From Myxococcota bacterium (lineage in GTDB: Bacteria > Myxococcota_A > UBA9160 > UBA4427): DNA of 64,000 bases. Of this stretch, positions 7,295 through 18,197 are shown in pieces (position 1 is the stretch's first letter; each line of letters begins with the position of its first letter). The stretch is taken from positions 1-64,000 of the forward strand of contig JANQEL010000279.1 in NCBI GenBank assembly GCA_028278345.1, written 5' to 3'. The notes beneath the pieces were generated by a model. It did no database searches. It was not told the origin of the DNA and saw nothing but the letters and a program-made list of their open reading frames with translations. The position numbers and the translations under genes are program-made.

Positions 7295-9409
7295 CTACCG
7301 CCCGTCGCTGCTGAAGGCGACCCACACGCTGCGATCGGCATCGACCACGATGGTGCCGGGCGAGGGGTGCTGTTTCACGGCAAGCCCGCGCCCGCGTACC
7401 TCGAGGCGGATGCCCTCGCTCTTCGCCATGGCGCGTACGGACGCGACGGTCTCGCCACGGAAGTCGGGAACGAAGAGGGGGTCGGCCGGCGGCGGCGGTG
7501 CGGAAACGTGGGGAAGCTCGTCGACCGAGCGAACGCGCGCGGGTGTGGGCGTGGGCAGGGCCGCGGGAGTTTCCCGCTTCGCGACGACGCGCGGCGCAGT
7601 CTTCTTCTGCGGGGTGGGCTTCGCTTTCACTTCGACTTTCTTCTTCGCTTTCGCGGCGGGTTTCGCGCTCGCCAGTTCGACGGCCCTCGGCGGCGCCGGG
7701 ATGGGTGCGGGTTTGGTGAAGATGTCGACGTGGGCGAGCTGTCCGGCAGCGACCTTCGCGAAGAGCGGCGCAGCGACATCGCCGCCGCCGTGGGCGAGAC
7801 CCTTGGGCTCGTCGAGCATGGCCACGATCACGAGCTTGGGATCATCCGCAGGAGCCGCGCCCATGAACCACGCCGTGTAGCGGGTCTGGGAATAGACCCC
7901 GCGATCCGTATCGAGTTTCTGCGCCGTGCCCGTCTTTCCCGCGACGCGGAGCCCTTCGAGTGCCGCCTTGCGTCCCGTCCCCTCGGCGGACACCACGGCC
8001 TCGAGCATCTTCATCACGCGGTCGGCGGTCTCCTCGCTCACCACGCGTCGCGGCGTCGGGGCCTCGACCCGCTGCCACTCGGCACTCTGGCTCTCGTCTC
8101 CGCGTCGCCGCGCGGAGATGATGCGCGGCATGCGCCACTGCCCGTCGCCGGCGAGCACGGCCATGGCGGATGCGAGCTGCACCGCGGTGACGCCGATGCC
8201 CTGGCCGTAGGCCACGGTGGCGTGATCAATGGCCTTCCACTCCTGCCACGGGCGCAGCAGGCCGTTCGATTCGGAGGGGAAGCCGCTTCCCGTCTTCGTG
8301 CCGAAACCGAAGGCGCGCAGGGCGTCGTAGTGGGCTTCGGGGCCAAGCAGCTGCGCGATCATCACTGAGGCGACGTTGCTCGAGTGCATCAGCGTGTCGG
8401 TCGGGTCGAGGATGCCGTAGGGCTTGTGGTCCTTGATCTTCTTGCCGGGCACGTCGAGGGTGCCGTCGCCGGTGTCGAAGCGTTGGCGGGGATGGACCGT
8501 TCCCGTCTCGAGGGCCGCGGCGATCAGGAAGGCCTTCATCACCGAGCCGGGTTCGACCGCGTCCTGGAAGGCCGATGATCGCGTCAGCTCGTAGCGCGTG
8601 TCGCGAAAATCGTTCGGGTCGAAGCTCGGCCCTTCGGCCAGGGCGAGGATCTCTCCCGTCATCGGGTCGAGGGTGATGACGCAACCGCCGTGGGCCCCCG
8701 ACTTCTCGATCGCCGCGCGCAGGGCCGTCTCGGCTTCGGCCTGCATCGCCATGTCGATCGTGAGCGCCACGTCGCCGCCCGAGGTCATCTCGGGTTCGAC
8801 GCGCCGCTGGGTCAGCAGCTGGCCGCGGGCATCGCGTTCGACGGAGACACGCACCGGGGTCCCGCGCAGCCACTCGTCTTCCATCTGTTCGACGCCGCGC
8901 ACGCCCTGGCTGTCGATGTTCGAGAAGCCGAGCAGCGAACTCGCGAATTCATCGGCGGGGTAGGCGCGTCGCGGTTCCATCACGATGCCGACGCCGGGCA
9001 GTTCGAGCGCTTCGACGCGGGCTGCGACCTTCTCGTCCACCCAGCGCGCGACGAAGGTGAAGCGATCGCGCTCGGCGAGGCGTTTGCGGAGGGTCGTGGT
9101 CTTGCGCCCGAGGGTCCGCGCGAGCCTTCGCACGGCGTCTCCCTGGGTGTCGAACTCCTGGGGAAGCACGTAGATCGAAGGCGCTCGCACGCTCAGCGCG
9201 AGTTCCACGCCTGCGCGATCCACGATCAACCCGCGCTGGGCAGGAAGCACCATCGCGCTGGCCAGCTGTCCCTTCGCCCGCATCTCCCCGCGTTCGGTGA
9301 CGACGGTGAGATGGGCGGCGCGCGCGGCGAGTCCGACGAACAAGACGAGCAAGACGGCGCGCATCACGGCCACACGGCGACCCGCGCCCCCCAACTCGAC
9401 ACTTCTCAT
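7295..9409 (-). CDS. ftsI: FtsI/PBP3-type transpeptidase with a C-terminal PASTA domain
   Basis: Division-specific class B penicillin-binding protein that cross-links septal peptidoglycan. The 704 residues contain one N-terminal membrane segment (about 14-34), a PBP dimerisation domain and the transpeptidase domain with all three catalytic motifs: SVMK (289-292), SSN (343-345) and KTGT (492-495). After the catalytic domain comes a Lys/Ala/Pro-rich linker (about 565-635) and one PASTA-like unit starting FVPDFRGETVASVRAMA. The linker and PASTA tail are absent from E. coli PBP3 and recall SpoVD-type proteins. The ATG overlaps the ftsL stop (ATGA). Confidence 0.93.
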   Translation of the reverse strand: MRSVELGGAGRRVAVMRAVLLVLFVGLAARAAHLTVVTERGEMRAKGQLASAMVLPAQRGLIVDRAGVELALSVRAPSIYVLPQEFDTQGDAVRRLARTLGRKTTTLRKRLAERDRFTFVARWVDEKVAARVEALELPGVGIVMEPRRAYPADEFASSLLGFSNIDSQGVRGVEQMEDEWLRGTPVRVSVERDARGQLLTQRRVEPEMTSGGDVALTIDMAMQAEAETALRAAIEKSGAHGGCVITLDPMTGEILALAEGPSFDPNDFRDTRYELTRSSAFQDAVEPGSVMKAFLIAAALETGTVHPRQRFDTGDGTLDVPGKKIKDHKPYGILDPTDTLMHSSNVASVMIAQLLGPEAHYDALRAFGFGTKTGSGFPSESNGLLRPWQEWKAIDHATVAYGQGIGVTAVQLASAMAVLAGDGQWRMPRIISARRRGDESQSAEWQRVEAPTPRRVVSEETADRVMKMLEAVVSAEGTGRKAALEGLRVAGKTGTAQKLDTDRGVYSQTRYTAWFMGAAPADDPKLVIVAMLDEPKGLAHGGGDVAAPLFAKVAAGQLAHVDIFTKPAPIPAPPRAVELASAKPAAKAKKKVEVKAKPTPQKKTAPRVVAKRETPAALPTPTPARVRSVDELPHVSAPPPPADPLFVPDFRGETVASVRAMAKSEGIRLEVRGRGLAVKQHPSPGTIVVDADRSVWVAFSSDGR

Positions 9410-9810
9410 GGTCGCGTTCCGTCCGCAGCGATCGGCCCGCTCTTGTTCGGAAGGGGAATCACCTGGTCGGGCGTGCCGAAGCCGAGCTTGCGCGCCTCCG
9501 CAGCCAGACGGGTCGGCTCGCGCTGACGGAGCAGTTCGACGGTGACCTTCTGCTTGTGATCACTCAGCGCCTGCACTTCGGCCATCGCTTCGGCGGCGGC
9601 GTAGCGCATGCGAACGACGTCCATCCGCAACCACACCAGACCCAGCGCGCACACCACGACGGCGACGATCACGGGAACCAGGGCGGCGTTGCGATGGCGC
9701 TTGCGACGCGGCGCCATGTCGAGACCGATCAGGTCGAGGCGGCCTTCGGGTTCGCGCTTGCCGCGCGCCCAATCGGGCAGCCGATTCTCGAAGAATTCCG
9801 CGAAACTCAC
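9406..9810 (-). CDS. ftsL: FtsL-like divisome bitopic protein
   Basis: Small single-pass membrane protein expected to act in the FtsQLB-type divisome subcomplex. The 134 residues have a basic cytoplasmic N-terminus (PRRKRHRNA), one hydrophobic helix (about 44-61) and a short periplasmic coiled-coil-like stretch ending LAAEARKLGFGTPDQVIPLP, which resembles the conserved end of FtsL. The assignment rests on size, topology and position between rsmH and ftsI; FtsL is poorly conserved in sequence. Both ends overlap the neighbouring genes by four bases. Confidence 0.85.
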   Translation of the reverse strand: MSFAEFFENRLPDWARGKREPEGRLDLIGLDMAPRRKRHRNAALVPVIVAVVVCALGLVWLRMDVVRMRYAAAEAMAEVQALSDHKQKVTVELLRQREPTRLAAEARKLGFGTPDQVIPLPNKSGPIAADGTRP

Positions 9811-10820
9811 GCTGCTACTCCCCCGCTCTCGGCCCTTCCCCCGCTCTTGTCCGTTCCCCCGCTCTTGGCAGTTTCCACCCGCTCGGCCGCGCGCAAGCGA
9901 CCGGAGCGCGCACGCGGATTGCGCTTCACCTCGTCATCGGAGGGTTGGACGGGCCGCCTGGTGATGACGCGCAAAGTGATCTGTCCGCCGCAGATGCACA
10001 CGGGTGTGCGGGGCGGGCACGTGCAGCCCTTCGCGGCGTCGCGCAGGGTCTGTTTCACGATGCGGTCTTCGAGGGAGTGATACGCGATCACCACCAGGCG
10101 GCCCCCAGGGCGGAGGACCCGGATTGCAGCGTCGAGGCCTTCGCGCAGCGCGTTCAGTTCATCGTTGACCGCGATGCGCAGTGCTTGGAAGACGAGGGTT
10201 GCGGGGCTGTGCTTGCGACCGCGGCCGATGCCCGCGGACTCGATGACGCGGAGCAGGTCGGCTGCGGTGCGAATCGGATCTTGCTTGCGGGTTTCGACGA
10301 TGGCGCGGGCGAGGCGCTTGCTGCCCGGCAGTTCGCCGTACTCCTGGAACCAGAGCTGGAGTTGGTTCGCGGTGGCGCTGCGCAGCAGGGCGCTCGCCGG
10401 CTCGCCGACCTCCGGGTCCATGCGCATGTCGAGGGGCGTGTCTTCGGCGCCTTCGACTGCGAAACGAAAGCCGCGCTCGCTGGAATCGATCTGATACGAC
10501 GAAACGCCGAGATCGAGCAGCACGCCGTCGACCTGATCGATGTCGAGCTGCGCGAGGATGCGATCGAGATCGCGGAACGAACCGGGCACCACCTGCAGGC
10601 GATCGCCGAAGCGGGCGAGGCGGGTGCGCGCGGCGCTTCGCGCATCGGGGTCGAGATCGATGCCGATCAAGCGACCGTCGGGCGAAGTGGCTTCGAGGAT
10701 CGCTTCGGCGTGACCGCCGCCACCGAGAGTGCCGTCGACGATCGTGGCACCGGGCAACAGGTGCAGGTGTTCGAGGGTTTCTTGCTCGAGAACCGGGCTG
10801 TGTTGGAAATCTAGGGCCAC
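9807..10820 (-). CDS. rsmH: RsmH (MraW), 16S rRNA C1402 N4-methyltransferase
   Basis: SAM-dependent methyltransferase acting on 16S rRNA C1402. Motifs include HSPVLEQETLEHL, the SAM site VDGTLGGGGHAEAIL, LLDLGVSSYQID, ERGFRF and IAYHSLEDRIVK. The frame continues upstream to a TTG at 10886 with further GTG codons, but homologues start close to the HSPVL motif, so I chose the GTG at 10820 (337 residues). The C-terminus ends in three SGG-containing six-residue repeats (KSGGTD, KSGGRA, ESGGVA) encoded by an 18 bp tandem repeat at about 9818-9868. The stop overlaps the ftsL start. Confidence 0.93.
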   Translation of the reverse strand: MALDFQHSPVLEQETLEHLHLLPGATIVDGTLGGGGHAEAILEATSPDGRLIGIDLDPDARSAARTRLARFGDRLQVVPGSFRDLDRILAQLDIDQVDGVLLDLGVSSYQIDSSERGFRFAVEGAEDTPLDMRMDPEVGEPASALLRSATANQLQLWFQEYGELPGSKRLARAIVETRKQDPIRTAADLLRVIESAGIGRGRKHSPATLVFQALRIAVNDELNALREGLDAAIRVLRPGGRLVVIAYHSLEDRIVKQTLRDAAKGCTCPPRTPVCICGGQITLRVITRRPVQPSDDEVKRNPRARSGRLRAAERVETAKSGGTDKSGGRAESGGVAA

Positions 10821-11040
10821 AACAGCCGCCTGCTTGCCGCACCCGCGGATCCCCGCGCGCACGTGTGCCACATGAAGGGCGAGCAAGTACGGGAGTAGAG
10901 AGAGGTGCTGGGGGCCCCAGCTTGCCTACGTCCCAGCGCGTACCCCCCAGTAACCACGCTGGTCCATCAATGGCTTGCCAGGACCACCCAGCCTCTCTAC
11001 AGGAAGAGTCCTCTCTTCCTGTCCCCCAACGGATCTCCCC
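10821..11040 (-). other. mraZ-rsmH intergenic region with a perfect hairpin
   Basis: A gap of about 220 bp between the mraZ stop and the chosen rsmH start, the only sizeable gap inside the otherwise tightly packed cluster. It holds a 10 bp perfect inverted repeat with a four-base loop at 10999-11022 (arm ACAGGAAGAG), 19 bases past the mraZ stop on the transcribed strand. No T-run follows it, so it is not a standard intrinsic terminator. It could be an attenuator or an RNA-processing or stability element. No coding frame was found here. Confidence 0.55.
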
Positions 11041-11484
11041 CTAGCTCGTTGGCGCTTCGTCCACCGAGCGTTGAATCGAATCGAAGTTCTCGACGATGTC
11101 GAGATTGCCGGCGTCGTACGTTGCTGCGTCCCAAATTTCGATGCATTCGAGATTGCCGGCCAAGGTCACTTTGCTTTCCAACTTTGCGTGCGCTCTCAAA
11201 TTGGGCGGCACGAGAATTCGTCCCTGGCTGTCGATGGGGCACTCTGTGGATCCCGAGATGACGAAGCGCGTGTACTTCTGGACTTCCGGCTGCAGCTTCG
11301 ATTTACTCTTCAGTGCCTGTTCGATCTCCAACCAGTCTTCGTATGGGTAAAGCGCCAGGTAGTCCTTGAATCGAGTCAGTATTGGAGGTTTTTCACTACG
11401 GCGAAGGATTTCGTTTCTGAACGCCGCCGGAATGCTGAGTCTGCCTTTGCCGTCGATCGTGTGAACATGCTCGCCGCGAAACAT
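11041..11484 (-). CDS. mraZ: MraZ, transcriptional regulator of the dcw cluster
   Basis: DNA-binding protein with an AbrB/SpoVT-like double fold that represses or modulates its own division/cell-wall cluster. The 147 residues contain both repeats: FRGEHVHTIDGKGRLSIPAAFR near the N-terminus and FVISGSTECPIDSQGRILVPPNLR in the second half. The ATG at 11484 gives the usual MFRG-type start; an in-frame start 30 bases upstream would add a non-conserved extension. Phased TGGGA boxes lie directly upstream. Confidence 0.95.
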   Translation of the reverse strand: MFRGEHVHTIDGKGRLSIPAAFRNEILRRSEKPPILTRFKDYLALYPYEDWLEIEQALKSKSKLQPEVQKYTRFVISGSTECPIDSQGRILVPPNLRAHAKLESKVTLAGNLECIEIWDAATYDAGNLDIVENFDSIQRSVDEAPTS

Positions 11485-11536
11485 TCTCAGATGCCCCCCG
11501 GCTGTGTGTCCCAACGGTCGCTTGCTTGGGCCTTCG

Positions 11537-11602
11537 TCCCACCTCCCGTCTGACGCGATCCACCTTATCCCACCTCATCCCACTTTCCACCCCTTCATCC
11601 CA
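11537..11602 (-). promoter_or_regulatory. MraZ operator: phased TGGGA boxes
   Basis: Reading the minus strand upstream of mraZ, TGGGA occurs at 11602-11598, 11582-11578, 11572-11568 and 11541-11537, with another copy at 11513-11509. The first three lie on a 10 bp grid, and degenerate TGG copies fall between them. MraZ proteins are known to bind direct TGGGN repeats spaced at 10 bp, so this is very probably the autoregulatory operator. An AT-rich tract (about 11611-11632) lies just upstream. I could not identify a convincing -35/-10 pair. Confidence 0.75.
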
Positions 11603-11726
11603 GGGAAAGTCGATTTTTTCGATTTTTTTTGGATACAGGCGTGCGCGTACGCCAGGAAGCAACAAATCACCACCGGATTTCGCTCAGTTTGGGACCTGAG
11701 GTGGGTGGTATGGAGTGGCGTCAGCA

Positions 11727-11889
11727 AGCAGCCGGTTGAAGAACCCTTCGGTCGCCATCCGCGGCCCTTCGACCCGATCTCTGCGTTGCGCAATCACGGC
11801 CGTAGCTATGGCTACGCCCGCGATCACGCGCCTTGATCTCGGGTCGAATGACCACGGCTGGCTCGGTCAGGGTTCCTCAACCGGCTGCT
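11727..11889 (-). repeat. Palindromic element copy 1 (163 bp, terminal inverted repeats)
   Basis: An interspersed element with about 20 bp terminal inverted repeats (left AGCAGCCGGTTGAAGAACCC, right arm complementary except for one base). Imperfect symmetry runs along the whole length, centred on the stem CGTAGC-TATG-GCTACG at 11801-11816, exactly mid-element. A second copy lies at 14822-14983. The right terminus forms the last two bases (AG) of the TAG stop codon of the deacetylase-family gene. No target-site duplication is visible. It has no ORF, so it is a MITE-like or large REP-like element. Confidence 0.8.
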
Positions 11890-12955
11890 ACGCGATGCCG
11901 GAGTAGTGGCCCGAGTGCACGTCTCGAACGGCGCGCACGATGTCGGCCAGGTTGCTTCCATCCGGAATCTCGAGGCGGTTCGAAAGCAGGCTTTCGGGGT
12001 CGTCCTGGAGCATGCCTTCGAGCACCGAAAGGGTGCCTTCGGCCAGCCCCTGGGCCGCATACCCACCTTCGAGAATGAACGCGAGACGCCCGTTGCAGGC
12101 TGTTTCAGCCACTTCCCGCACGATCTGGGTCATCGCGAAATAGCCGGTTCGGGTGATCCCCATCGAGCCGAGCGGGTCGGTCTCGTGGGCGTCGAAACCG
12201 CAGCTCACGAGGATGAAATCGGGGTCGAACTCGAGCGCAGCCGGCGCGAAGAGGTGCTGGAAGACGGCGATGTATTCGTAGTCGCCGCAGCCAGGTGGCA
12301 TGGGAATGTTGAGGGTCGACCCGATTCCCTCCCCGGTGCCGGCCTCGCCCGCGGCGCCGGTCCCGGGATAGAACGGGAATTGATGGGTCGAGACGTAGAG
12401 AATGTCCCGATCCCCCTCGAAGCTGTGCTGGGTGCCGTTCCCATGGTGGACATCCCAGTCCAGGATCAGGATCCGGTCGATCCCGGCCTGCTGCTGGAGG
12501 GCCCGGGCGGCGATCGCGACCCCGTTGAAGAGGCAGAACCCCATGGCGCGGTCGGCTTCGGCGTGGTGGCCCGGCGGGCGCAGGGCCGCGAAGGCCCGGT
12601 CGATCTCGCCGCTGGCGATGCGCAAGGAGAGGTCGACGCAGCTTCCGGCGGCCAGACGGGCCACGTCGAAGCTCGCAGGGGAAACGTAGGTATCGGCGTC
12701 GAGGCGCCCCGGGGCGCTCTTCACCGCGGTTTCGATACTGCGCAGGTGCTCGGCGGAATGCACCGCGAGGATCTCCTCGTCGGTCGCCGCGCGCGGCTGC
12801 AGACGCTCGAGGCTGCCCGGCGCGTGGGCGTCCCACTGGGAGATGGCTTCGCCGACGGCCAGCAGCCGAGCCGGCTTCTCGGGATGGCCGTCGGGCGCGA
12901 CGTGATCGCGAAACCGGGGATCCTCTACGACGTGCATGCGTCGGGTGACGGCCAT
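11888..12955 (-). CDS. Histone deacetylase-family (acetoin utilisation / acetylpolyamine amidohydrolase-like) hydrolase
   Basis: Zinc-dependent deacetylase of the arginase/deacetylase fold, probably cytoplasmic and acting on acetyl-lysine or acetylated small amines; the substrate cannot be told from sequence. The 355 residues show HPEKPARL, RPPGHHAEADRAMGFC (catalytic His pair), LDWDVHHGNGTQ (zinc Asp and His), YPGTGAAGEAG and SCGFDAHETDPLG (second zinc Asp). The start is uncertain: ATG at 12955 was chosen, ATG at 12937 (MHVVEDPRF) is possible, and neither has a strong ribosome site. The TAG stop is completed by the terminal repeat of the adjacent palindromic element. Confidence 0.88.
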   Translation of the reverse strand: MAVTRRMHVVEDPRFRDHVAPDGHPEKPARLLAVGEAISQWDAHAPGSLERLQPRAATDEEILAVHSAEHLRSIETAVKSAPGRLDADTYVSPASFDVARLAAGSCVDLSLRIASGEIDRAFAALRPPGHHAEADRAMGFCLFNGVAIAARALQQQAGIDRILILDWDVHHGNGTQHSFEGDRDILYVSTHQFPFYPGTGAAGEAGTGEGIGSTLNIPMPPGCGDYEYIAVFQHLFAPAALEFDPDFILVSCGFDAHETDPLGSMGITRTGYFAMTQIVREVAETACNGRLAFILEGGYAAQGLAEGTLSVLEGMLQDDPESLLSNRLEIPDGSNLADIVRAVRDVHSGHYSGIA

Positions 12956-13020
12956 GACGCACGATGGTATCTGATCGTTCACTCGAGGTGGCAATGAGTT
13001 GCAGGGAACGGGGGTAGGGC

Positions 13021-13977
13021 GTGTCGATTGGCGATCTTCCGCAAGACGTCGTGAACCGCCTGCGCGAGGCGAGTCGCGGTCTTTCCCGCGAGATCCGCTC
13101 CCAGCAGCGGCGCGCCCTGCGCCCCGATCGCGAAACCGAGAGCGGCAGCGAGTGGAACACCCTCTTCGATGAGCTGCGCGGGCGCATCGGTTCACTCGGT
13201 CCGTTCAAGGAGAGCGAGGGCGACCGCGAAGTCGACGATTTCGGGCTGCGCAGCGACTTCGTCGAACGCATCCTGCCGCTATTCGACTTCCTGTTCGATC
13301 GCTATTGGCGCGTCGAAGTGAAGAGCGATTGGAACCTGCCCGCGCGCGGCCCCGTGCTGCTGGTTGGCAACCGCGCCGGCGTGCTTCCGTGGGATGGCAT
13401 GATGCTCTCCCACGCGGCCAGTCGGCTCTTCGACGATCACGCCCGCCCGCGCTTCCTGGTCGAACCGGAGGTGTGGAAGCTTCCCTTTGCTCGCGTCCAA
13501 CTCGCGCGCGTGGGTGGCGTGAAGGTGAGCGCCGAGAACTACGAGGAACTCACCAGTGCGGGGCATTCGGTGGTCCACTTCCCGGAAGGCGCGCGCGGGG
13601 TGCTGCATTCGTTCCGGGAGCGCTATCAGGTGGGGCCGTTCAAGCGCCTCGAGGTACTCGAAGCAGCCCTCGGGCGCGGGGTGCGGATCGTGCCGGTCGG
13701 CATCGTGGGCGCCGAGGAGGCGGTTCCGCGCCTCGGCGATGCGCGCATCCTCTCGCGCTTGATCGCACGCGAGATCGACGCACCCATCCTCCCCATGACA
13801 CCGACTTTTCCCCTGCTCGGGCCGATGGGGCTCCTGCCGTTGCCTTCGCGTTGGGTGATCGCCTTCGGCGCGCCGATCGAGGGCGGGCAGGTGGAGCAGG
13901 TCGCAGAAGCCCTGCGCGAAGAGGTGCAGGGCCTGGTCGAGGAGGGGCTCGACGCGCGTTCGTCGACCTGGCTCTAG
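13021..13977 (+). CDS. PlsC-like acyltransferase, possibly inactive
   Basis: Member of the lysophospholipid/glycerol acyltransferase fold. The 318 residues contain about 95 N-terminal helical, charged residues, then the acyltransferase core: LLVGNRAGVLPWDGMML at the motif I position and VVHFPEGARG at motif III. In most relatives motif I reads NHSGxLPxD with a catalytic His; here Arg replaces that His, so acyl transfer may be impaired or the protein may have another role. The start is GTG at 13021. It diverges from the deacetylase gene by 65 bp and ends 10 bp from the convergent PhaR-like gene. Confidence 0.8.
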   Translation: MSIGDLPQDVVNRLREASRGLSREIRSQQRRALRPDRETESGSEWNTLFDELRGRIGSLGPFKESEGDREVDDFGLRSDFVERILPLFDFLFDRYWRVEVKSDWNLPARGPVLLVGNRAGVLPWDGMMLSHAASRLFDDHARPRFLVEPEVWKLPFARVQLARVGGVKVSAENYEELTSAGHSVVHFPEGARGVLHSFRERYQVGPFKRLEVLEAALGRGVRIVPVGIVGAEEAVPRLGDARILSRLIAREIDAPILPMTPTFPLLGPMGLLPLPSRWVIAFGAPIEGGQVEQVAEALREEVQGLVEEGLDARSSTWL

Positions 13978-13987
13978 CCCGACGGCC

Positions 13988-14740
13988 TCAATCGGCGTCG
14001 AAGTCGCTCGAAGGCGCTTCGGCCTCGGGTTCGCCCCGGGCGAGCACGTCCTGCAGTTCTTCCAGGGCGCGCGCCACGCGTTCGAGGTTCTCGTTCAGGG
14101 CGTCGACGTCCTTGCGCCGCGGCAGGTCGAGCACCTTGAAGACGCGTTCCACCGCGTTCTGGATCGCGCTGTCGAAATCCGGTGAGGCGTAGGCGATCCA
14201 ATCGCCGAGCCCGCGGCGATCGCGTGCGCGTCCACTGGTTGCGCTTCGGCCTCGCTTCTGGCCCCGCGACGCATCACTTCGTCGCTCGGTTCGCGGGCGT
14301 GAAGCAAAGGGCGACTCGCTCGGGTCGATGCGCTCGTCCTCGCGATCGTCTTCGTCGTAGGGATCGCGGTCGTCGTCGCGCGACGATCCACGCCGCCGTT
14401 CGGCGTCGGCCCCCAGGATGCGGCGGAAGCGCTCCTGGATCTCATCGAAGTTGTCGCTCGCGTCGTCGACGCCCTTCTTGAGTACGTCGTAGAGCACGTC
14501 CCCACCGCGCTCCATGATCTGCGAAAGCAACGAAGGCGAGGGATCGCCCTTCGAGCGCGTCGAATCGACCAGGATCTGCGAGAGCGCGACCGAGGTGATG
14601 TCCTCGCCGGTCTCGTTGTCGATCACGCGAACCTCTTCACCCTCGTCGAGGAGTTCGGAGATGCCCTTCAACGTGATGTAACGACTCGAAGCCGTGTTGT
14701 AGAGCTTCCGGTTCGCGTAGCGCTTGATCAGGATCGGCAT
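13988..14740 (-). CDS. PhaR-like polyhydroxyalkanoate regulator
   Basis: Probable DNA- and PHA-granule-binding regulator. The first 65 residues (MPILIKRYANRKLYNT...ITLKGISELLDEGEEVRVID) match the PHB/PHA accumulation regulator DNA-binding domain. Residues about 130-195 are highly charged and low in complexity. The end (VERVFKVLDLPRRKDVDALNENL) forms an amphipathic helix like those of granule-associated proteins. The total is 250 residues. The ATG at 14740 was chosen over an in-frame start 51 bases upstream because the conserved domain starts there. No phaC is in the window, so a role in PHA storage is inferred from the family alone. Confidence 0.83.
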   Translation of the reverse strand: MPILIKRYANRKLYNTASSRYITLKGISELLDEGEEVRVIDNETGEDITSVALSQILVDSTRSKGDPSPSLLSQIMERGGDVLYDVLKKGVDDASDNFDEIQERFRRILGADAERRRGSSRDDDRDPYDEDDREDERIDPSESPFASRPRTERRSDASRGQKRGRSATSGRARDRRGLGDWIAYASPDFDSAIQNAVERVFKVLDLPRRKDVDALNENLERVARALEELQDVLARGEPEAEAPSSDFDAD

Positions 14741-14821
14741 GGGGGTCTCACTGGAAAGCGCGTGGTGGGTGGGGAAGCCGCAAACTAGCACGCGGCCGTT
14801 GCGCCGTCGTGCTTCGACGGG

Positions 14822-14983
14822 AGCAGCCCATTGGAGAACCCTTCGGTCGCCATCCGCAGCCCTTCGGCCCGGCCTCTGTGTTGCGCAACAGCGGCCGTAG
14901 CGGTGCTACGCCCACTGTCACGCGCCTTGATGCCGAGCCGAATGACTACGGCCGGCTCGGTCAGACTTCTCCAACGGGCTGCT
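14822..14983 (-). repeat. Palindromic element copy 2 (162 bp)
   Basis: Second copy of the element at 11727-11889, in the same orientation and nearly the same length. Its termini AGCAGCCCATTGGAGAACCC and the complementary right arm differ from copy 1, but the changes in the two arms largely match each other (TTGG pairs with CCAA, against TTGA with TCAA in copy 1), so symmetry is kept. The centre is CGTAGC-GGT-GCTACG at 14896-14910. The right terminus again supplies the AG of a TAG stop, here of the helical unknown gene. The rest of the 14741-14981 gap would hold the promoter of the PhaR-like gene. Confidence 0.8.
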
Positions 14984-15518
14984 AGCGCTGGATGGGGATC
15001 CTCTGCACGCGCGCCCGGCGCGTCGAGCGCGTGCGCGCGCTCTCGGACTTCGCCCGGTTGGTCCCCGCTTCATTGCGGCCATGGGAAGCCGAACGGTTGC
15101 GCGTCCTGGTCTCCGGGCGAACTCCCAGCTCCCAGAGCACTTCGCGCATGCCCAGGAAGACGCGCAAGACAGCGCGCGCGTCGGGATCGTCCTTCGACCG
15201 CAGCTCCCAACGCTCGACCTCGCGGTCGACCGCCGCGAGCACCGTGTTGATGGCCGCGTTGCGGAAGGAGGGGGCTTCGCCGTTGAGGGTGCGCTCGAGT
15301 TGCTCGAGCAACTTTGCGAGCTCGCCGAGGCTGCGGTGGGTATGGGCCGGCGCACCGAGTACGCCGATGCTCGCGACATCGAGCAGATCCCGCGCGCCCG
15401 CAACGCCTTCGGCGGCCGCGCGCTGCGCGTGATCGAGGGCGCTTTCGAGCGACTCGCGCATCGACGCCTCGTCGCGCGCGGTCGTCGATCTTCGCGTTCG
15501 GCTGCGGGCGGGACTCAT
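14982..15518 (-). CDS. Hypothetical helical protein between phaR-like and arsA-like genes
   Basis: Not recognised. The 178 residues are strongly helical: a basic start (MSPARSRTRRSTTARDE), an amphipathic stretch (MRESLESALDHAQRAAAEGVAGARDLL), a central segment (LLEQLERTLNGEAPSFRNAAINTVLAAVDREVERWE) and a basic, low-complexity tail. The composition recalls phasins or small polymer-associated proteins and the neighbour is PhaR-like, but this is only a suggestion. The ATG at 15518 was chosen; an earlier in-frame start would run into the arsA-like gene. The TAG stop is completed by palindromic element copy 2. Confidence 0.6.
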   Translation of the reverse strand: MSPARSRTRRSTTARDEASMRESLESALDHAQRAAAEGVAGARDLLDVASIGVLGAPAHTHRSLGELAKLLEQLERTLNGEAPSFRNAAINTVLAAVDREVERWELRSKDDPDARAVLRVFLGMREVLWELGVRPETRTRNRSASHGRNEAGTNRAKSESARTRSTRRARVQRIPIQR

Positions 15519-15579
15519 GGGGCCGGCTCGTCGGTGCGCTTTCTGGGGGTTGCGGGGGGTATGGCGAAGTGAAGGTCGT

Positions 15580-16803
15580 TCACTCGGGGCTGGCAAGCGT
15601 TTCTTCGCTGGGCGGGCTCACGCCTTCCACCTCGCCTTCGCGCACGTCCTCGAGGGCGGCTGTGATCTGGTCGAGGGTGTCGAGGTCGTGGACGTCCCGG
15701 CGCTGCTCGCGCACCAGGCGGAAGAAACAACGGTTGCGCTCGGCGCGAAGCCTCAGGGGCTCGACGTTGCGTGCATCCTGGGCCGCGACACGCGCAAAAT
15801 CCCCGACCGCGTCGATGGTCGCCCGGGCCGCGGCGCCGTCGCTGAGGGCAACGGCCAGCCGCTTCGCCTCGGCTTCGGGAACGTCGTCTTCGAGCAGGGC
15901 GTCGGCGGGGGGCGTCTGCGCCGGCCAGCGGTGGATGCGATTGATCACCACCCCGCGCAGTCGGGCCTTCATGTCGACGAGATGTTCGAGGAATTGCTCG
16001 GCGTTGCGCGTCGATTCGCGGGACGGCCCCGCGACCAGCACGAACGCGCTCTTCGGCCCGAGCAGCGTCGCCTCGATGCGCTCCGCCCGACTCTTGAAGC
16101 CCTCCGACAGGTCCTCGATCGCCAACAGGAAGGAAGAGAGATCTTCGAGGAAGCCCACCCCGGTCACGCGTTCGAGCAACTGCAGCACACCCTGGATCGG
16201 TCGCTGGAAGACGCGAACGCTCCAACGCCCCGCCGCCATCGCGGGATGCACCAGCAGTTTCACCAGGCGGCTGTCGAGGAACTCGACCAGGCGCCGCGGC
16301 GCATCGAGGAAGTCGAGGACGTGTTGCGCGGGGGGCGTATCGACGATGACCACGTCGAAGTCACCGCTCTCGGACATCTCGAGCACCTTCTCCATCGCCG
16401 CATACTCACCGCTGCCCGAGAGTGCACCCGAGGCGTGTTGGTAGATCGGATTGTCGAGGATCTGCCGGCGGATCTCGTCGCTCGGCGAGAAGCGTTCGAT
16501 CAGGCCGTCGAAGGTGCGCTTGGGGTCGAGCATCATGGCGGAGAGAGCGACGTCGCCACCCGGGTTCCCGCTGCTCTCGGGCAGGCTGACCCGCCTGGGT
16601 TCGTTGCCCAGGGATTCGATGCCGAGGGCGTCGGCCAGGCGTCGCGCCGGGTCGATCGTCAGCACGAGGGTGCGCAGCCCGCTGCGCGCGGCGAGTAGCC
16701 CGAAGGCCGCAGAAACCGTCGTCTTCCCGACGCCACCGGTGCCGACGCACACCACGATGCGGTGGGAGCGCAGGATCGATTCGGGCGTGACGGCTTCGCT
16801 CAC
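15580..16803 (-). CDS. ArsA/Get3-like ATPase, downstream member of a pair
   Basis: Deviant-Walker P-loop ATPase of the ArsA/Get3/MinD class. The 407 residues show VVCVGTGGVGKTTVSAAFGLL (signature lysine loop) near residues 17-37, LTIDPARRLADALG and DVVIVDTPPAQHVLDFLDAPRRL (switch region). No arsenite-binding cysteine cluster or arsB/arsD partner is visible, so arsenic export is unlikely. The GTG at 16803 overlaps the preceding arsA-like stop (GTGA), pointing to a coupled, possibly heterodimeric pair. Confidence 0.85.
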   Translation of the reverse strand: MSEAVTPESILRSHRIVVCVGTGGVGKTTVSAAFGLLAARSGLRTLVLTIDPARRLADALGIESLGNEPRRVSLPESSGNPGGDVALSAMMLDPKRTFDGLIERFSPSDEIRRQILDNPIYQHASGALSGSGEYAAMEKVLEMSESGDFDVVIVDTPPAQHVLDFLDAPRRLVEFLDSRLVKLLVHPAMAAGRWSVRVFQRPIQGVLQLLERVTGVGFLEDLSSFLLAIEDLSEGFKSRAERIEATLLGPKSAFVLVAGPSRESTRNAEQFLEHLVDMKARLRGVVINRIHRWPAQTPPADALLEDDVPEAEAKRLAVALSDGAAARATIDAVGDFARVAAQDARNVEPLRLRAERNRCFFRLVREQRRDVHDLDTLDQITAALEDVREGEVEGVSPPSEETLASPE

Positions 16804-17855
16804 TGCGGACTCCCAGCCGCATCGGCGCCGCCCTCATTGCGCCCGATCAGCTGACGGCCGATTTCGAGCAGGGTTTCAGGTCCTTCGATGCCGCCGAGTC
16901 GTTCGCGCACTTCGACCAGCGGAAGTCGGGTGCGCTCGGCGAGCTGATCGACGTAGCGCGAACTCAGCTCGAAGCGCTCGCGTCGCCAGGCGCAGCACTG
17001 CGCCATGACTTCGGGCGTGGGGAGCACCTCGAAGTCCCCACCCGTCGCGTTCACATCGAGGGCGTTCAAGCGCGCCTCGAGATCCCGCGCGTCTTCGGCG
17101 GTTCCAAACGGTGAGTGCGCGACGCGATTCATCACCGCGCGATCGATCGGCACGCCGACATGCTCGATGATGCGCTCGATCAACTCGACGGTCTCGTTGA
17201 CCGGAAGCTCTTCGGCGAGACTCACGGGCAACAGCCGCGTGCGCTCGGGATCCTTGATCAATGCCTCGACGTTGTGCGCGTTGCGCCGCAGGGGCCCCGT
17301 GCGAATGGCGCCCTGCACGACCCGCGGAACGTCGAGGAAGGTGAGCCCGTGTCCGCTCGCCGGGGCATCCACGATGATGAGGTCGTAATCCGGGCGCGCG
17401 GCATCCCGCCCGAGGGATTCCATGTAGTAGACCTTGCCCAGGGTGATGAGCTCCCTCCAACCGGGCGCGGCCGCGAGTAGCTGTTGGAAGGCGGGTTGTC
17501 GCAGGCCGCGCTCGACGAGCGCTTGCATGCCGATCTGCAACCCGAGGTACTCGACCAGCGCGTCGAAGGGGCGGATGTGGAGCACCTCGAGGCCGGGCCG
17601 CAGTTCGCGCCCCTGGTAGCCCACCGAGGCCGTGCCCGGATCGATCAGCTGCGGGCAGTGCTCGTCGTGGCCGGTCTCGGCCAGCGCCACCCGCTTGCCG
17701 GCCTCGGCCGCGGCGAGGGCGAGGGCCGTGGCGACGGTGGTCTTCCCGCAGCCCCCCTTGCCGGTGACGATCACCAACCGGCAATCGAGCAGCGAAGGCA
17801 GCGCCCCCGGCCCGCGGGCTCCGTTCGGCTCATGCTGCAAAGTGACCGATGACAC
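16800..17855 (-). CDS. ArsA/Get3-like ATPase, upstream member of the pair
   Basis: Second deviant-Walker ATPase. The 351 residues begin with about 24 variable residues, then LVIVTGKGGCGKTTVATALAL (P-loop), IDPGTASVGYQGRELRPGLEVLHIRPFDALVEYL and DLIIVDAPASGHGLTFLDVPRVV. It differs clearly from its neighbour, with DPGTA in place of DPARR, so the two are old paralogues rather than a recent duplication. Such tandem pairs are known in Actinobacteria and in deltaproteobacterial groups, with no established function. The start is GTG at 17855. Confidence 0.85.
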   Translation of the reverse strand: MSSVTLQHEPNGARGPGALPSLLDCRLVIVTGKGGCGKTTVATALALAAAEAGKRVALAETGHDEHCPQLIDPGTASVGYQGRELRPGLEVLHIRPFDALVEYLGLQIGMQALVERGLRQPAFQQLLAAAPGWRELITLGKVYYMESLGRDAARPDYDLIIVDAPASGHGLTFLDVPRVVQGAIRTGPLRRNAHNVEALIKDPERTRLLPVSLAEELPVNETVELIERIIEHVGVPIDRAVMNRVAHSPFGTAEDARDLEARLNALDVNATGGDFEVLPTPEVMAQCCAWRRERFELSSRYVDQLAERTRLPLVEVRERLGGIEGPETLLEIGRQLIGRNEGGADAAGSPQ

Positions 17856-18197
17856 GCCGGGTTTTCCCTACGAGCGCTGGCCGTCGCCCGGCTCTCCCGC
17901 GCCCGATTCATCCGCGCTTCCGCACGGGTCGTCGTCGCGGGGAGCGGTGTTCAGTGGCGAGCGGGTTCGGGGCCGCGGGGGCAGCGGGCGATTCTCAAGC
18001 AATGTGCGGGTCCGTCCGAAACAGCCTCGTGGAACAGCAGTTTCGCATCGACGTCCGAAGTCGTCGGGGCCGACGACTTCGGGGAAGAAAGAACGCATCG
18101 CTGCGCCCGGCGAGCCTGGCAGAACGCCGGGCTCTCGAAATCGACGCTAGCACACAGCACACAGCAGCTACGCAGGACAACCACGCGGGAGCAGGCC
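17856..18197. other. Divergent intergenic region with a 13 bp perfect palindrome
   Basis: 342 bp between the divergently transcribed arsA-like and MJ0042 genes. It must carry both promoters, though I could not pick out clear boxes. The notable structure is a perfect inverted repeat at 18055-18082 (arms CCGAAGTCGTCGG and CCGACGACTTCGG with two bases between), long enough for a dimeric repressor or a strong hairpin. No credible ORF was found. Confidence 0.6.

Follow-up and report, generated by a model that had tools for sequence, protein, structure and literature searches.

A new MITE-like family of palindromic repeats in a Myxococcota bacterium, often ending at TAG stop codons and probably targeting CTAG

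The window analysed here, a stretch of 64 000 nucleotides at the start of contig JANQEL010000279.1 of a Myxococcota bacterium (assembly GCA_028278345.1), contains two copies of a palindromic repeat of 162-163 bp. Each copy completes the TAG stop codon of a neighbouring gene. The element belongs to a new family resembling miniature inverted-repeat transposable elements (MITEs). We consider it probable that these repeats are a non-autonomous palindromic transposable element with a preference for CTAG, or more loosely YTAR, and that an IS5/IS1182-type DDE transposase (NF033581) is the most likely mover. The link with stop codons is mostly a by-product of the CTAG target, and the core of the element is selected to fold on one strand only.

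We first looked at the distribution of the element. In the following, G000 is the genome of the window itself (7.26 Mb), G001 onward are its relatives, of which 60 were searched, and L numbers are loci. The initial annotation, made from the letters of the window alone, gave the coordinates, the AGCAGCC...GGCTGCT termini, the near-palindromic body and the central CGTAGC/GCTACG hairpin correctly. The arms of the element (I1) are 51 nt long and 78% complementary. G000 contains 25 copies at E ≤ 5e-14, plus two weak fragments, and the element was matched in 21 of the 60 relatives. It is thus short, non-coding and multicopy with terminal inverted repeats, as MITEs are. No match was found to plasmids or phages, nor to Rfam for positions 9000-18000 of the window (up to E 5). 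No description of the element was found in the literature titles and abstracts searched, and a text search with its sequences returned only papers that look unrelated by title.

The copies differ in their outer stems, which fall into types A (AGCAGCCCGTTGAA), B (AGARSYCATCTCAT), C (AGCAGGGTGCTGAA and AGCAGGCTGCGGAA) and E (AGGAGGCTGTTGAA), with CTAG as the usual border. Both window copies have A-type ends, and a further outer stem type occurs in a metagenome-assembled genome (MAG) labelled Planctomycetota. The core pattern GATCAAGGCGCGN{26,52}CGCAACGCAGAGATC is present in 54 stretches of GTDB genomes, all of them MAGs by title. Their submitters' labels, taken as given, are Deltaproteobacteria, Myxococcota, Proteobacteria, Planctomycetota, Bacteroidetes, Ilumatobacteraceae or just "bacterium". 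The core is kept under different outer stems across MAGs labelled as several phyla. In viral contigs the core pattern was not found.

Some variations of the element were seen in G006 (L174-L178), with truncated copies and one containing an internal duplication; several are near-identical, suggesting recent activity. Directly next to two different members of the family (L038 before position 1480, and L170 in G014) lies a further palindromic element; its ends resemble CTAGTGTCCTGTCCCAGGAGTTC, and inside it has a comparable motif, CTGCGTTG...CCGCCTTG.

In terms of insertion, relatives have orthologous sites without the element, and so the element inserts. The flanks of copy 1 run on directly in G002. 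For 14 of 16 further G000 copies, a search with the flanks matched one or more relatives, and many of these 14 revealed an element-free site. The reverse search, with copies from G001 and G002, showed G000 to have CTAG (L031), CTAC (L282) or TTAG (L048) at the corresponding place, and at L019 G002 has CTAG at the right edge of the site. One intergenic site is occupied in two species, by an A-type copy in G000 (L004) and a B-type copy in G001 (L161), which may reflect repeated insertion at one site or an exchange of outer stems.

As for the target, 111 copies had enough flank, of which 13 were dropped because one end was not recognised. At the 196 ends of the remaining 98, the bases just outside AG are mostly CT (121), followed by TT (24) and CC (15). 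With all genomes pooled, conservation over 178 ends is 175 for the inner A and 164 for the inner G, as against 142 for the outer T and 132 for the outer C. AG therefore behaves as part of the element, which speaks against a 4-bp CTAG duplication in this genus. A TA duplication of the IS630 type is compatible with L282 and L048 but does not fit the cc/gg flanks of L011, L015 and L016. The mobile unit in this genus would then be AG...CT, and insertion at CTAG would regenerate CTAG at both ends. With such a unit, a TAG stop in the target would be restored, and a coding sequence cut in the right frame would gain a new TAG.

The association with stop codons is general. Rows scoring under 14 at either end were left out of this count, leaving 90 copies, and genes were called with our own codon-usage script, trained on the window and used on the other genomes too. 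At least one end lies exactly (offset 0) at the stop of a called gene in 44 of the 90, nearly always TAG, with 11 of 25 copies in G000 and 33 of 65 in the other genomes. A further stop-associated copy in G000 (L008), missed by the gene caller, was found by hand, and near-identical recent copies in G014 are likewise preceded by in-frame TAG ends. Given the 25 copies in the genome and the 44 of 90 at stops, the coincidence noticed in the window is not due to chance, and the observation is confirmed as correct and general. The initial annotation had assigned the completing AG to the right end of the element. This is true of both window genes, but stops are found at either end elsewhere, and at both ends in 12 copies.

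A preference for gene ends, as had been proposed, is real, but it mostly follows from the target. In 268 002 bases of G000 only 45 CTAG occur outside the elements, where a first-order Markov model expects 260, a depletion of about six-fold. Of these, 18 serve as TAG stops of called genes, 10 lie in coding sequences and the other 17 are intergenic. The window itself is very poor in CTAG: apart from the two elements it has 11, and six of these are TAG stops. Over all loci (914 795 non-redundant bases), stops account for 105 of the 273 CTAG outside coding sequences. The share among copies, 44 of 90, does not differ significantly from this background (p = 0.085), and CTAG preference therefore explains most of the coincidence. 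Because CTAG is scarce and many CTAGs outside genes are stops or intergenic, surviving insertions would fall on stops about half the time. Target choice and base composition can thus give rise to a conspicuous association of a mobile element with stop codons, and the survival of the insertions has a simple account, as the stop is rebuilt.

The effect on proteins varies between sites. At L008, G002 reads GAG ACC TGG ATC GAG CCC TGA where G000 has GAG TCC TAG, and the insertion probably shortened the gene. At window site 1 the protein ends in GIA followed by TAG, and the G002 orthologue ends in GITAG followed by TGA, two codons later; here the insertion probably made a new stop. At site 2, G001 and G003 carry TAG at the identical codon without the element, and the insertion reused a TAG already present in relatives. 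The suggestion that insertions define new C-termini holds for L008, and probably for site 1, but not for site 2.

Candidates for the mobiliser came from viral contigs, where a search for C-type ends revealed two complete insertion sequences, L346 (1547 bp) and L347 (1300 bp). The L346 transposase scores 266 bits with NF033581 (IS5 family; cut-off 140) and 189 bits with the IS1182 model, below the cut-off of 270. L347 codes for a protein that is similar by eye. The ends of these insertion sequences, CTAG-CAGNNTGYNGAAAAAC, are closely matched by C-type stems and more loosely by A-type stems. Among the 60 relatives, two have a transposase of this type, G048 in an intact insertion sequence with CTAG at both ends, and G029 in a broken one; both belong to the same order. 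We infer that an NF033581-type transposase moved the copies described here. The IS1182 domain PF13751 was considered as well, and is found in 7 of the 60 relatives but not in G000, G006 or G014.

Several observations weigh against this explanation. No NF033581-type transposase was found in G000, G002, G003, G006 or G014, leaving the partner missing or unassembled; the draft assembly of G000 may lack the autonomous partner with the same ends that is expected of a MITE. Draft assemblies often lack multicopy insertion sequences, and this absence is therefore weak evidence. The B-type outer stem matched no insertion sequence. No 4-bp duplication fits L008, L015 or L282, while four distant copies (L242, L266, L230 and L246) resemble such duplications. 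The share of copies at stops exceeds the looser YTAR background (44/90 against 154/544, p = 0.0002). There is also an excess of copies with stops at both ends, 12 of the 44 stop-associated copies as against 7 of 105 CTAG (p = 0.002). This excess between convergent stops may come from tolerance of insertion there, or from replacement of the spacer.

The fold of the element is strand-specific. On the minus strand both window copies form one long hairpin, with -121.7 kcal/mol for copy 1 (shuffle mean -63.3, z -14.9) and -114.5 kcal/mol for copy 2 (shuffle mean -68.2, z -11.1). In an alignment of 41 copies picked by hand (A type, B type and two C-type copies), RNAalifold predicted 58 pairs, of which 38 show a compensatory change on both sides in at least one sequence. 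The arms thus covary, bearing out the conserved folding suggested initially. Because the predicted structure comes from the very strand it favours, G-T and A-C were also counted over the 53 pairs in which Watson-Crick combinations form the majority, where G-T fills 148 cells and A-C 8. The alignment energy is -101.1 on the favoured strand and -41.8 on the opposite one. For single copies the mean RNA energy is -115.1 against -88.3 kcal/mol, and the favoured strand is lower in all 41. Split by type, the favoured strand has the lower energy in 41/41 A, 29/30 B, 10/10 C and 9/9 E copies. In eight MITEs without the core, oriented arbitrarily, the strands differ by 0.2 to 11 kcal/mol. The covariation is thus strand-specific, as expected of a structured RNA. 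A 6x6 mismatch, GACCGA/GACCGA, is kept in nearly every row of the alignment other than L273; it could form tandem G-A pairs on the favoured strand.

A plain double-stranded MITE has no need of a core that folds on one strand. Among the 32 copies with one stop, the stable strand coincides with the sense strand of the gene 13 times and with its antisense strand 19 times (p = 0.38). Selection of the fold for the neighbouring gene is therefore unlikely, and selection more likely concerns the element itself. The role of the one-strand fold would then lie in mobility, or in an RNA, and not in the host gene. A more tentative idea, which we hold to be somewhat less probable than its negation, is that the GATCAAGGCGCG...CGCAACGCAGAGATC core, with the GACCGA/GACCGA loop in the aligned A and B copies, is a mobile structure selected as single-stranded RNA or DNA. 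In organisms with the labels of several phyla, it would sit between unrelated outer stems, some of which agree with local insertion-sequence ends, and borrow different CTAG-targeting transposases, or act on them, for example through an RNA or folded-DNA intermediate or as a transposase-binding decoy. With this core one can test whether a derivative of a DNA transposon passes through a stage of structured RNA or of folded single-stranded DNA.

The most serious of the alternatives, though an improbable one, is stem-loop replacement, in which a hairpin between convergent genes is replaced and both stops come to lie at the element ends. According to an excerpt of PMC5678879, IS1272 of the IS1182 family replaces hairpins between convergent genes. 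L005, L025 and L100 keep both stop codon positions and have lost the 7-22 bp spacer of the relatives, sequence present in relatives is also gone at L002, L008, L012 (against G002) and L019, and the sub-threshold IS1182 score of the L346 transposase points the same way. However, no clear loss of sequence is seen at L001, L003, L015, L021, L048 and L282, and flank complementarity ends at -2, with positions -3 to -12 no higher than shuffles (89 copies, one more being left out of this set for lack of flank). The short reach of the complementarity argues against replacement as a rule. We give rather less credence to a single-strand element that a Y1/HUH enzyme mobilises in the form of a folded hairpin, be it a derivative of REP (repetitive extragenic palindromic) sequences and their hairpin-forming doublets (REPINs), of IS200/IS605, or an integron attC-like element. 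The much better fold of one strand would suit it, as would the near or complete lack of target duplication in the genus and the CT flanking most ends, since TnpA-REP enzymes cleave at CT dinucleotides in what an excerpt of PMC8266576 describes. The ends of the element nevertheless resemble inverted termini of the IS5 type, and PF01797, the domain of Y1 transposases, including the REP-associated ones (RAYT), is found in 19 of the 60 relatives but not in the copy-rich G000 and G006, nor in the copy-bearing G052. In G003, Y1_Tnp gave ten weak and incomplete matches, each ~65 residues long, within reading frames of 198-264 residues; an unrelated HUH-like family may be behind them.

Two further explanations concern the palindrome itself. 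Arm covariation might come solely from template-switch correction of palindromes, with no selection on folding, which we find slightly harder still to accept. At L273 (3493-3659) one 6-base loop arm is flipped, giving a perfect palindrome, just as correction would yield, but the mismatch is kept in nearly all other aligned rows, and the bias of G-T over A-C is specific to one strand, whereas correction would be symmetrical. Least probable is a host regulatory hairpin, either a terminator or a stabiliser of mRNA 3' ends, maintained at gene ends. A strong stem at a stop codon and the covarying arms are what it would predict; yet 46 of the 90 copies have no stop at either end, copies are missing at orthologous sites, and orientation bias relative to genes is lacking in spite of the strand-specific fold. 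The preferred explanation remains a CTAG-targeting MITE, and the interpretation in the initial annotation, a MITE/REP-type element, is partly supported. The MITE half agrees with the multicopy, non-coding nature, inverted termini, element-free orthologous sites and IS5-like ends, while the REP half does not fit the length of 163 bp and the lack of PF01797 in G000 and G006.

Table 1. Coordinates of the element and of the gene ends at its borders in the window.
Feature	Position	Strand	Remarks
Element copy 1	11727..11889	minus (strand with the stable conserved fold)	163 bp, AG...CT; absent at the orthologous site in G001, G002 and G003
Element copy 2	14822..14983	minus	162 bp; no recognisable copy at the same place in G001 and G003
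5' half of the conserved 6x6 internal loop	11863..11868	minus	GACCGA
3' half of the conserved 6x6 internal loop	11748..11753	minus	GACCGA
5' half of the conserved core	11827..11838	minus	GATCAAGGCGCG
3' half of the conserved core	11776..11790	minus	CGCAACGCAGAGATC
Apical hairpin	11798..11819	minus	around CGTAGC/GCTACG
TAG stop of histone-deacetylase-like gene (PF00850)	11888..11890	minus	T flanking; AG is the element end
TAG stop of gene 14982-15461 (no Pfam match)	14982..14984	minus	T flanking; AG from the element

Elsewhere in the window, two neighbouring minus-strand genes for ArsA-type ATPases (15580-17840) overlap by 4 bases.

Lastly, we compared the element with known systems. ERIC and Correia elements are palindromic intergenic repeats of 100-200 bp, and resemble it in this respect. 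REP sequences and REPINs moved by TnpA-REP (RAYT) share the extragenic palindrome, one structurally distinct strand and CT at the ends. They differ in being 20-40 bp long (as given in an excerpt of PMC3733652), with a hairpin tagged GTAG or CGTC, against 163 bp and ends that are mostly CTAG, and in that G000 has no Y1 transposase. IS1272, as far as the excerpt of PMC5678879 goes, is similar in the apparent lack of target duplication and in the loss of sequence at some sites, but the flanks here have no extended target inverted repeat. MITEs in viral contigs (L337, L344, L345, L351, L372 and L373) are short and mostly bounded by CTAG with similar inverted ends, and differ in lacking the conserved core pattern. 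Finally, IS5-family insertion sequences of the NF033581 type (transpos_IS5_4; related to IS1182, NF033551) have CTAG-CAGNNTGYNGAAAAAC ends, which C-type stems match closely and A-type stems more loosely, with CTAG bounding the intact copies in L346 and G048. They code for a transposase, whereas the element is non-coding, 163 bp long and built around a structured core.

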